Shown: one piece after another, positions 1 to 5,099 of the stretch | Numbering within the stretch: position 1 is the stretch's first letter | Layout of the letters: each line of letters opens with the position of its first letter | Origin: Candidatus Tectimicrobiota bacterium | Lineage (GTDB): Bacteria; JACPSX01 | DNA length: 6,089 nucleotides | Assembly: GCA_016193065.1 (NCBI GenBank) | Contig: JACPSX010000035.1 | Location: 1-6,089, forward strand | Direction of reading: 5' to 3' | The notes under the pieces: model-generated | Databases searched by the model: none | What the model saw: only the letters and a program-made list of their open reading frames with translations | What the model was told of the DNA's origin: nothing | Translations under genes and position numbers: made by a program

Positions 1-584
1 TCGATGGCCAGGTTCAGCTCATCGACGCGGGCGGAAATGGCGGGCTCGTCAATTTGAATGAATCGGGCGCCGGCCGCTTCCAGCTCCTGAGCCTCCAGGC
101 GGATCACCTCCGCCCAGGCCTGCGCCGCCCGGGCCCGGTTCGGATAATATTCGTTGAAGGACCAGTCCATCAGTGTGTAGGGGCCGGTCAGCATGCCGAT
201 GATGGGCCGGGAGGTCAGGCTCTGCGCAAATTGGAACCACTCCACCGTGATGGAACGGGGCCGCTCGATGGGGCCCACGATGATCGGCTTCTTGTAGTAG
301 CGGTTGCCGTAAGAGCGCACCGGCTCGCTGATGACGCAGCCCTTGATGTTCTCGGCGAAATACGTGGCCATGTCGCCGCGGTACATCTCTCCGTCCACCA
401 GGAGATCGTAATCCATCTCCTCCTGGGTGCGGATCCAGAATTCCGTGGCTTCCCTCTCCAGTTTGTTGAGCTCCTGAGGGGAGATTTTCCCTTTCTGAAA
501 CAGAGCGCGAGCCTTCATGAGGTTTTCCGGCTTGGGGAAACTGCCCACGGAAGTGGTCGGTAACTTTGGGGACAGTGGTCTCAT
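1..584 (-). CDS. MetE-family (core-type) methionine synthase-like methyltransferase, 3' end outside the window
   Basis: Reverse-strand translation from the ATG at 584 gives 194 residues before the window ends. Near the N-terminus is TTSVGSFPKPENL, the homocysteine-loop signature of the MetE C-terminal domain. Further on are VDGEMYRGDM, LTGPYTLMDWS and, close to the edge, IQIDEPAI, whose Asp contacts the homocysteine amino group in MetE. No N-terminal MetE duplication is present, so this is the short core form. Such proteins make methionine by moving a methyl group to zinc-bound homocysteine; short forms often use a methyl-corrinoid protein instead of methyl-folate (family knowledge). The zinc-ligand half lies beyond the window, so activity cannot be judged. 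The start overlaps the preceding stop as ATGA, implying translational coupling with the paralogue at 581-1543. It could also be a related zinc methyltransferase with another thiol substrate. Confidence 0.88.
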   Translation of the reverse strand, partial: MRPLSPKLPTTSVGSFPKPENLMKARALFQKGKISPQELNKLEREATEFWIRTQEEMDYDLLVDGEMYRGDMATYFAENIKGCVISEPVRSYGNRYYKKPIIVGPIERPRSITVEWFQFAQSLTSRPIIGMLTGPYTLMDWSFNEYYPNRARAAQAWAEVIRLEAQELEAAGARFIQIDEPAISARVDELNLAI

Positions 585-1543
585 CCCTTGACTCCCTCGA
601 ATTCCCGGACCAGTGTGACTAGATTCCGGACTTTGTTGCGGCAGCGATCCAGGGGCAAGAATTCCAGGTTCGCGCTGGGGGCAACGGAAAGCGAGCCGGG
701 TTTCACAGCGGTGAGGATTTGCTCCAGGGCCTGGAAGATCTCGTCCCGGGACTCGAGGCGGGTATTCCTGGCGTCCATGATCCCGGCCAGGAAACGGCGG
801 TCCAGGGAGCGTCCTTTGAGGAGCCGGGCCGCGTCCGGGGTATAGGTGAAATCAAAGCCGACCTCCTCTACCGGAAAATCGAGGAGGTCGTTTAAGACGG
901 GAGTTGCGTCTCCAAAATAGAAATAAAGTGTGGTGCTGGCCCGGATCCCCTCGAAGAGGCGCTTCATGGCCCTCTGGAACCGGGGCATCTCTTCGGGGAA
1001 CTGCAGGATCGCGGGTTCGTTCACGTGCAGGAACTTGACCCCCTGCGCCTGTAGGGTCAGGAGTTCCGCGTTGAGAGACGTGGAGAGATCCTCCAAGAAA
1101 TCGTCTTCTCGGGGATAAGCGGGGGCCGAGGAAAGTTTGGACAGGGTAAACGGACCGGTCACGATCACTTTTATCGGAACGGGGGAGCAGGAGCTGGCAA
1201 ACTGGAAATCGCTGACCAGAACCGGGGCCTTCCAGGAGACCTTCCCCTGGGCGATGGGCTTGCGGTAGTAAACGTTCGTATCGAAATAGCGCACCAGGCC
1301 GTTGACCGTGACCCCGGCAAGCCCCTTGGCGAGATAAGTCACCTCATCGTCCCAGCGCACGCAGCCGTCCGAGACCAGGTCCAGCCCCAGCCCCGCTTGC
1401 TCCTCGATGGTGAGGCGGGTGACTTCTTTATAGGTCTGATCCAGCGCCCCGGGACCCTGGCGGTCTGCCTCTCGAAGAGCCCGGCGCAATTTCTGATCAC
1501 CAATTGTCTTGGGGTATCCCCCCACCACAGTTGTCCGGATCAT
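581..1543 (-). CDS. MetE-like protein with a lost zinc site, probable non-canonical partner of the next gene
   Basis: A protein of 320 residues with ATG at 1543, preceded by AAGGA 7 bases upstream. It has the whole MetE C-terminal TIM-barrel layout: TTVVGGYPK (4-12), VSDGCVRWDDE (57-67), VTGPFTLSK (128-136), LHVNEPAIL (172-180), and GIMDARNTRLES (254-265) near the end. Key residues are replaced when aligned by motif: the HxC zinc pair is Y207/Y209 (LYFYFG), the third ligand Glu is D231, the last ligand Cys is A291 (APSANLEF), the catalytic His is R259, the homocysteine Asp is N175, and the Ser of the GSFP loop is Gly. The frame is intact and fold motifs are kept, so this is not a decayed gene. 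I infer a non-catalytic or repurposed subunit, perhaps pairing with the product of 1-584. Name and substrate are unknown; a UroD-fold relative is the main alternative. Confidence 0.85.
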   Translation of the reverse strand: MIRTTVVGGYPKTIGDQKLRRALREADRQGPGALDQTYKEVTRLTIEEQAGLGLDLVSDGCVRWDDEVTYLAKGLAGVTVNGLVRYFDTNVYYRKPIAQGKVSWKAPVLVSDFQFASSCSPVPIKVIVTGPFTLSKLSSAPAYPREDDFLEDLSTSLNAELLTLQAQGVKFLHVNEPAILQFPEEMPRFQRAMKRLFEGIRASTTLYFYFGDATPVLNDLLDFPVEEVGFDFTYTPDAARLLKGRSLDRRFLAGIMDARNTRLESRDEIFQALEQILTAVKPGSLSVAPSANLEFLPLDRCRNKVRNLVTLVREFEGVKG

Positions 1544-2039: not shown

Positions 2040-3290
2040 TCAGTGAGCTGGATTGATCTGTCCCGACATCCTCCCCTCGGGCAAGTCGATCACCGCAATG
2101 GCGTTGGCGTGAGAGCAAGCCACATAGGCGCGCTTTCCGCTCGGGTCAAAGGCGATGTGCGAAGCCCCGCCTCCGATTTGGAGCCTGGCAGCAACCTCTC
2201 TTGTGGAAGTGTCAATCAAGGCGCATTCCCCCGAGCCAAAACAGGCAACCACCAGGAATTGCCCATCGGGGGAGAGCTCGATCCCGTGCGGATAGGAACC
2301 CACCGGAATGCGGCCCAGGCGCCGCCAATCCTTGGTCTCGATGACCGCCACCTCATCGGCCAGAAAATTGGAGACGTAGAGAAATTTCCCGTTGGGATTC
2401 AGGCGCGGCACGTGAGCCCCGGGGCCCGAGGGGGCCGAGACCACGACGGCCTGGCTGCGGGTATCGATCACCGTGATTCCGTTGGCAAAGGAGGTGGCCA
2501 CCAGAGCGTAGCGACCGTCCTCGGTGAAGGTGAGATGAGAAGCGCCGAGCCCCGAGGGAATCCGTTTGACGACTTGCGCAGTGGAAAGATCGACCACACA
2601 GACTTCTCCCGAGACCGCGCAGGGGATGTAGGCGTATCGACCATCTGGGGTGACAGAGGGATCATGGGGCCCCTGACCGACAGGGAGGGTTTTCTCGCCA
2701 CTGACGGAAGTGGCGTCGATAATGCTCACGTCACCGGACTGAGGACCTGTGACGACAATGAATTTCCCGTCGGGAGAGACGCAGGGGAGCTGCGGGCCTT
2801 TAGCCACGCCAACCGTTCCCACCTTTTCCCGGCGGGTGGTCTCGATCACTGACACGTCGTTGGAGACTGAATTTGCCACGTAGACGAAGCGGCCGTCGGG
2901 GCTCAAAGCGAGGTGAGATGCCCCCTCTCCGGTTTTGATCCTGCCCAGTGTTTTTCCACTTGAGGCCTCAAAGACCCACAGGCTCTCCCGGCGGTCCGCC
3001 GAGTAAATGATCTTCCCGTCAGGGCTGGTCTTCAGGTCGTGCAGGCCGATGCCCGTCTCCAGGGGTGGATATTCGCTGTGCCGGACTGCAACTTCCCACT
3101 CTCCTTCCTTCTCTTGGATCTGGTACTTATAGCCAGCTTCCAGGAGGTTCATGCAGGGGCCGTAGGGCTCCTCAGGGAAGGCGACCGTTAGGGTGTGCCC
3201 GGAGGGTAAGCCGCCCAGGGTGCGGCGTAGGGCGGCGGCCCACTGGGCCCGGTCGGTGGATCGCATGTCAAGTCGGGCTTCGGTATCCAT
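2040..3290 (-). CDS. DUF2249-like domain fused to an eight-blade YVTN beta-propeller
   Basis: A protein of 416 residues; the ATG at 3290 follows a GGGGGAG ribosome site 7 bases upstream. Residues 5-72 resemble DUF2249, a TusA-like fold: LDMR opening, LGGLPSGHTLTV, then LLEAGYKYQIQEKEGEWEV. The Cys-Pro of true TusA sulfur carriers is missing. Residues 82-416 are eight repeats of about 42 residues with the YVTN pattern: S-P-D-G-(K/R) turn, YVAN-like strand, V-x-V-I-D/E strand and a closing G. Eight repeats match the blade number of the cytochrome d1 domain. Seven repeats start with a His (84, 126, 209, 252, 293, 335, 378); the third has Gln167. With no signal peptide it is presumably cytoplasmic, whereas many YVTN proteins are exported. 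Such propellers bind ligands or proteins; which one is unknown here. It stands alone, facing away from the tRNA genes. Confidence 0.9.
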   Translation of the reverse strand: MDTEARLDMRSTDRAQWAAALRRTLGGLPSGHTLTVAFPEEPYGPCMNLLEAGYKYQIQEKEGEWEVAVRHSEYPPLETGIGLHDLKTSPDGKIIYSADRRESLWVFEASSGKTLGRIKTGEGASHLALSPDGRFVYVANSVSNDVSVIETTRREKVGTVGVAKGPQLPCVSPDGKFIVVTGPQSGDVSIIDATSVSGEKTLPVGQGPHDPSVTPDGRYAYIPCAVSGEVCVVDLSTAQVVKRIPSGLGASHLTFTEDGRYALVATSFANGITVIDTRSQAVVVSAPSGPGAHVPRLNPNGKFLYVSNFLADEVAVIETKDWRRLGRIPVGSYPHGIELSPDGQFLVVACFGSGECALIDTSTREVAARLQIGGGASHIAFDPSGKRAYVACSHANAIAVIDLPEGRMSGQINPAH

Positions 3291-4238: not shown

Positions 4239-5099
4239 ATGCCTCTATTCATAAGTTACTCTCACGCAGACAAGGACTTCGTCGACAGACTGGCAACACA
4301 ATTGGTCGCTCACAAGGTTAACGTCTGGCTTGATCGCTGGGAAATGCATGTTGGCGAGTCAATCATCGACCGAATCCAAAGAGCAATCATGGATGCGAGT
4401 GCGCTTCTTGTCATCCTTTCCCCTGAGTCGGTTGAGTCTGAATGGTGCAAGAAGGAACTGAACAGCGGGCTGATCCGCGAGTTGGAGGAACGGCAGATTG
4501 TAGTTCTACCAGTCCTCGTTCGTGACTGTACCATCCCTATGTTCCTTCGTGAAAAACTTTATGCGGATTTCCGTACAAATTTTGATGACGGCTTGCGAAC
4601 AATTCTAGAAGCTGTCGCGAAAGTGACAAATGAATGGCGGAACCGACTCGAAACACCAACATGGCACACTGATTGGGCGATAGACTGGGGAGAAACCGAC
4701 GAGGGCATAGCAATCCTTCGGCTTACTCTTGTGGAGGTGGCTGAGAATCAACCATATTCCGTTCTCACCGTCATCAGCCTGATTCCGGGGCCTTATGCCA
4801 ACGCATGGTATAGAGTCATGGCGGAACAAAGGCAGGAGGATGTTGCTCGACGTATGGTCGTCGAGGGGCTTTCTGCGGAATTAAAACGGATAGACTTTCG
4901 AGTCCTTCTTGAAGATCAATTCCCAAAATCTACGTCTATTCCGTTTTCCATCGAGTCCGGTGATTACACTGCCAATATAACCACTAGGTTGCTTGGAACC
5001 GATACCGGTAGGGATGTTTTGTTCGATACAGCACAGCAGATTGATGGCATCAAGACCCAAATGCAGTTGGCTGCAGCGCAACGACTGGAAAATGCATAA
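4239..5099 (+). CDS. TIR-domain protein with an unrecognised C-terminal domain
   Basis: A protein of 286 residues, ATG at 4239 with GAGG 8 bases upstream. Residues 3-125 are a TIR domain: FISYSHADKDFVDRLATQL (box 1), VWLDRWEMHVGESI (29-42), ALLVILSPESVESEWCKKEL (55-74) and a closing FRTNFDD. Glu73 of the S-x-W-C-x-x-E motif is the residue that hydrolyses NAD in active TIR enzymes, so catalysis is plausible. Residues 135-286 have alternating strands (ILRLTLVEV, SVLTVISLI, IDFRVLLED, SIPFSIES) and a final helix; I do not recognise them. There is no membrane segment. Bacterial TIR proteins often kill phage-infected cells by NAD loss (Thoeris and relatives), but no ThsA or Argonaute partner is visible here. 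GC is near 50% on inspected lines, against about 60% to the left, and it lies beside a mobile-element scar: probably acquired. Confidence 0.88.
   Translation: MPLFISYSHADKDFVDRLATQLVAHKVNVWLDRWEMHVGESIIDRIQRAIMDASALLVILSPESVESEWCKKELNSGLIRELEERQIVVLPVLVRDCTIPMFLREKLYADFRTNFDDGLRTILEAVAKVTNEWRNRLETPTWHTDWAIDWGETDEGIAILRLTLVEVAENQPYSVLTVISLIPGPYANAWYRVMAEQRQEDVARRMVVEGLSAELKRIDFRVLLEDQFPKSTSIPFSIESGDYTANITTRLLGTDTGRDVLFDTAQQIDGIKTQMQLAAAQRLENA

Follow-up and report, generated by a model that had tools for sequence, protein, structure and literature searches.

A free-standing N-terminal-type MetE barrel from a bacterial genome, very probably the non-catalytic subunit of a split methionine synthase

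A minus-strand gene near one end of the window (the whole 6,089-nt stretch of DNA that was analyzed) very probably encodes a free-standing N-terminal-type barrel that serves as the non-catalytic, pterin-side subunit of a split cobalamin-independent methionine synthase (MetE), probably paired with the core MetE encoded downstream for the use of methyl-tetrahydrofolate (methyl-THF). MetE consists of two homologous barrels that are positioned face to face, wherein zinc and homocysteine are bound only by the C-terminal barrel. Split forms of this enzyme are known from archaea, and one bacterial example has been named, from Sulfobacillus sp. hq2 (Price et al. 2021, PMC7857596). A literature search on split MetE yielded nothing relevant besides that report. 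The features that bear on this assignment are listed in Table 1.

Table 1. Locations of the N-subunit gene, its core partner and key residues (window positions unless a contig is named)
Feature	Position	Strand	Basis
Stand-alone MetE N-barrel homologue, 320 aa	581..1543	(-)	ORF, Pfam, alignment, tree, model
Core (catalytic) MetE, first 194 codons, truncated at the contig end	3..584	(-)	Meth_synt_2 170.5 bits; best NCBIfam match PRK04326
ATGA overlap, 4 bp: N-subunit gene stop and core MetE start	581..584	(-)	Sequence
Fragment with the missing C-terminal part of core MetE	L018 7159-7542, end of contig C13	(-)	HLC, Glu, DVHSH, DPDC
LVRYFDTNVYYR, residues 83-94, long beta2-alpha2 hairpin	1262..1297	(-)	Alignment; counterpart of E. 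coli N-barrel motif MTKWFNTNYHYM
Codon N175, opposite homocysteine-binding Asp; T. maritima Asn199	1019..1021	(-)	Alignment and crystal paper
Codons Y207-F208-Y209, opposite His-x-Cys zinc ligands of the catalytic barrel	917..925	(-)	Alignment
Codon D231, opposite Glu zinc ligand; T. maritima Asp253	851..853	(-)	Alignment and crystal paper
Codon R259 (DARN motif), opposite His of DIHSP	767..769	(-)	Alignment
Codon A291, opposite last Cys zinc ligand	671..673	(-)	Alignment

The reading frame of the gene is intact, beginning with ATG and extending for 320 codons that are free of stops. The encoded protein matches the Pfam models Meth_synt_2 at 84.5 bits and Meth_synt_1 (PF08267, cut-off 27 bits) at 73.5 bits, and it matches MetE chains in the PDB with E-values down to 3e-27, wherein the N- and C-terminal halves of the same chains are both matched. 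Because of these Pfam and PDB matches, the reading frame is not a chance occurrence. The slightly higher score for the catalytic-domain model is a point against assigning the protein to the N-terminal type. An AlphaFold model of the protein (pLDDT 80.6, pTM 0.83), in which the hairpin at residues 62 to 72 is poorly modelled, aligns in a structure search with MetE-family barrels at Z scores of 29 to 35 that are about equal for N- and C-terminal halves. At the level of a predicted model, this fit confirms the MetE-family fold without telling an N-barrel from a C-barrel.

The two barrels are not joined in a single polypeptide, as is characteristic of full-length MetE, but are encoded by two reading frames that each have their own start and stop. 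Their 4-bp junction suggests that translation of the core gene may be coupled to that of the N-subunit. The core gene runs off the contig, and a fragment at the end of another contig carries the motifs HLCYG, DLEFSN, DVHSH and DPDCGL, which comprise the canonical ligands and the catalytic His, in a matching orientation. No sequence overlap was found between the two pieces, which were read separately, and we infer that they are parts of one core MetE gene. The adjacent gene and this fragment provide the genome with a core MetE partner whose zinc ligands are intact. Convergent with the fragment on contig C13, and overlapping its 3′ end by 4 bp, is mtnA (L018 6107-7162, plus strand), which encodes the S-methyl-5-thioribose-1-phosphate isomerase of methionine salvage.

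The earlier note had described a MetE paralogue in a clean frame whose zinc ligands, catalytic His and homocysteine-binding Asp are replaced. Indeed, the gene encodes an intact MetE-family barrel, and alignment places all six residues (N175, Y207, Y209, D231, R259 and A291) at the sites that had been proposed, the E. coli counterparts of five being D599 (N175), His641 (Y207), Cys643 (Y209), Glu665 (D231) and Cys726 (A291). Where the core methionine synthases MesA-MesD have His, Cys, Glu and Cys or accepted variants as zinc ligands, the protein has Y207, Y209, D231 and A291. The N-terminal barrel of Thermotoga maritima MetE has also lost its zinc and homocysteine sites (Pejchal and Ludwig 2004, PMC539065). 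In that barrel, the counterpart of Cys620 is Tyr232, which is followed by Tyr or, more often, by Phe. Phe230, Asp253 and Trp146 are named as disabling substitutions, Asn199 lies within the sequence LVNEPA, and the last Cys is kept in most sequences (PMC539065). Phe230 is located two residues before Tyr232, and hence opposite His618. At these sites the window protein reads Y209-F210, Y207, D231, N175 within VNEPA, and A291, and its former zinc and homocysteine positions are remodelled like those of a MetE N-barrel.

The missing zinc site is therefore expected, since the protein is the non-catalytic N-barrel half of MetE, and the site disappeared after the two MetE barrels had arisen by an ancient duplication. 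The proposal that the protein is retained for a purpose apart from zinc-dependent catalysis, such as a role as a pseudoenzyme subunit, pointed in the right direction but was built on a comparison with the wrong half of MetE. Two further suggestions, a new activity and a corrinoid-binding role, do not fare as well. The replacements are published features of the MetE N-barrel (PMC539065), and a free-standing N-barrel next to a core MetE is published as split MetE (PMC7857596). Nothing was found that calls for a new activity or for corrinoid binding.

The long hairpin in Table 1 carries the motif RYFDTNVYY in the window protein versus KWFNTNYHY in E. coli, and the first position stays basic. R85 aligns with the motif Lys that, by inferred numbering of the T. 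maritima motif, is taken to be Lys104, a residue that contacts O4 of the pterin (PMC539065). By the same motif alignment, T. maritima His111, a candidate proton donor, appears as Tyr92, which counts against the proposed assignment. A bacterial split MetE with such an Arg/Tyr hairpin might have an altered methyl-donor specificity, for example for another methyl pterin or a corrinoid protein, with the free N-subunit setting the donor, although we consider this very unlikely.

To place these residues among homologues, N-type and C-type sequences were aligned. The N-type rows included 8 bacterial loci, 2 sequences from genomes G009 and G018, 3 haloarchaeal subunits and 5 N-terminal halves of fused MetE, and the C-type rows included fifteen sequences, to which the core fragments from the source genome were added. 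Proteins from the 8 bacterial loci are 37 to 40% identical to the window protein, and a homologue of this type is present in 2 of the 40 relative genomes searched, all of which share only the domain with the source genome. Tyr209 and Asp231 occur in every aligned N-type sequence and position 259 is Arg, or Gln in the haloarchaeal subunits, whereas His-x-Cys occurs in every aligned C-type sequence. Among the ten bacterial homologues, Tyr209, Asp231 and Arg259 are conserved throughout. Position 207 is free to vary (Y, C, A, H, Q, N, T, F or V), most homologues carry Asp at 175, and the residue at 291 may be Ala, Cys, Ser or Thr. Judged from this alignment, only Y209, D231 and R259 are family traits, and the changes at 175, 207 and 291 are not family-defining losses.

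A core MetE gene lies directly downstream of 8 of the ten bacterial homologues (that of L014 is cut by a contig end), and in the other two genomes (L015 and G009) it is found on another contig. The check proposed in the earlier note, whether homologues have the same pattern and adjoin a core MetE, therefore gave a positive result. In the genomes of these ten homologues, no Meth_synt_1 match was found in a frame long enough for a full-length MetE. In the closest pair of homologues (L010 and L011), the N-subunit has a dN/dS of 0.17 and the core one of 0.09, and closely related homologues of the N-subunit are therefore under purifying selection; such ratios were taken from closer pairs only, as the nearest homologue of the window gene is approximately 40% identical to it, with dS > 1.2. 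The core MetE proteins encoded downstream of the N-subunit at L009, L010, L012 and L013 have DLALKN where E. coli has E665, the Glu that serves as fourth zinc ligand, and they retain the His-x-Cys motif along with the catalytic His and the final Cys; the partner fragment of the source genome keeps the Glu.

The arrangement resembles systems that are already known. Pyrococcus furiosus PF1268 and PF1269 form a complex that was named split MetE, for which methyl-THF or another methyl pterin was predicted as the donor (PMC7857596). Like PF1268, the putative folate-binding component, the window protein is a stand-alone MetE N-domain homologue of < 400 aa that adjoins a core MetE. Also as in P. furiosus, no full-length MetE was found, there being no Meth_synt_1 match in a sufficiently long frame in the source genome as available (86% complete). 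Unlike PF1268, the protein comes from a bacterial host and scores slightly higher with Meth_synt_2 than with Meth_synt_1. It consequently does not pass the filter of Price et al., which calls for the reverse order of scores and, according to its authors, missed real pairs such as AMET1_0514/0515 (PMC7857596); this filter is a search rule and not a defining property.

With the N-barrel of fused MetE from T. maritima and E. coli, the protein shares Tyr for Cys, Asp for Glu and the region of the long-hairpin motif, and with T. maritima also the change from Asp to Asn. It differs from both in being a separate polypeptide and in its hairpin residues. Haloarchaeal pairs on plasmids of Halobellus limi, Natrinema thermotolerans and Haloarcula sp. 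JP-L23 have the same order of N-type gene and then core gene with a 4-bp overlap, and the former zinc sites are likewise occupied by Tyr and Asp, but their subunits have Gln at 259 and Leu at 175. MesA-MesD are similar in barrel fold and size, yet they retain a zinc site and work with no N-barrel, whereas the window protein lacks both the zinc ligands and the catalytic His. The genomes whose homologues share the pattern are labelled as ANGP1, Bacillota, Armatimonadetes and Elusimicrobia MAGs, which extends split MetE, mainly archaeal so far, to these bacterial genomes. Apart from this extension, the system represents ordinary methionine biosynthesis. Annotation pipelines can misread split N-subunits, either as "dead" MetE paralogues or as catalytic methionine synthases.

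A different origin for the gene would be a young duplication of the adjacent core MetE, followed by loss of the metal site and adoption of a lineage-specific role as a regulator or scaffold. The gene does adjoin the core gene, is homologous to it, and scores well with the catalytic-domain model. However, a tree built from all columns separates the N-type from the C-type rows (support 100/96.5), and the window protein groups with the N-type barrels, the N clade itself resting on the diagnostic columns. An AU test with all columns rejects a grouping of bacterial split-N with split-C sequences (p 4.6e-9), and the same grouping is still rejected when the diagnostic-residue columns are removed (p 2e-4); with those columns removed, the N clade lacks support (28% of bootstrap trees) but is not rejected either (p 0.37). 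Because the split-N/split-C grouping is rejected, the gene did not arise as a recent, decayed copy of its neighbor. The same residue pattern is also found in the MAGs of all four labels and in fused MetE, and we regard a young duplicate as extremely doubtful.

An error that broke a single full-length MetE, either a frameshift or a misassembly, would also yield two adjacent genes. MetE in most bacteria is a fused two-barrel protein, and the window gene is near a contig end, both of which could favor this explanation. Against it, each of the two genes has a start and a stop of its own within the ATGA overlap. It was rejected since independent MAGs and complete haloarchaeal plasmids show this two-gene layout as well, leaving it next to no probability. 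It is also very unlikely indeed that the protein is an adapter that lets core MetE use a corrinoid protein as its methyl source in place of methyl-THF. Core MetE of the MesA-MesD kind is thought to depend on corrinoid proteins (PMC7857596), and the genome carries a stand-alone MetH-type homocysteine domain along with a weak match to a further MetH segment. Yet MesA-MesD function without an N-barrel, and the window protein retains the hairpin motif of the N-barrel, in which a basic residue aligns with the assigned Lys104. A MetF gene is also present in the source genome, and MetF makes methyl-THF.

These observations favor the split MetE, in which the N-subunit would pair, in a face-to-face arrangement, with the product of the next gene downstream, the core MetE. 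The core would supply the His-x-Cys, Glu and Cys ligands and the DxHS histidine, the N-subunit would close the cleft, and methyl-THF (or a related methyl pterin) would give its methyl group to zinc-bound homocysteine. Both the complex of N-subunit and core and the identity of the methyl donor are what we infer from the comparisons above.

Elsewhere in the genome, contig C52 encodes the stand-alone MetH-type homocysteine methyltransferase domain (L047 1148-2068, 306 aa), and the next gene (L047 2065-5754) encodes a protein of 1229 aa that includes an MTHFR-like segment; together these genes possibly form a second methionine route. In the remainder of the window, approximately 1 kb at the right-hand contig end (5100-6089) is without a convincing ORF or Rfam match. 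Preceding it is a plus-strand gene (4239-5099) for a 286-aa TIR-domain protein that resembles anti-phage TIR effectors and has no obvious partner within the window. A minus-strand gene at 2040-3290 encodes a 416-aa beta-propeller repeat protein of the YncE/lactonase-like kind.
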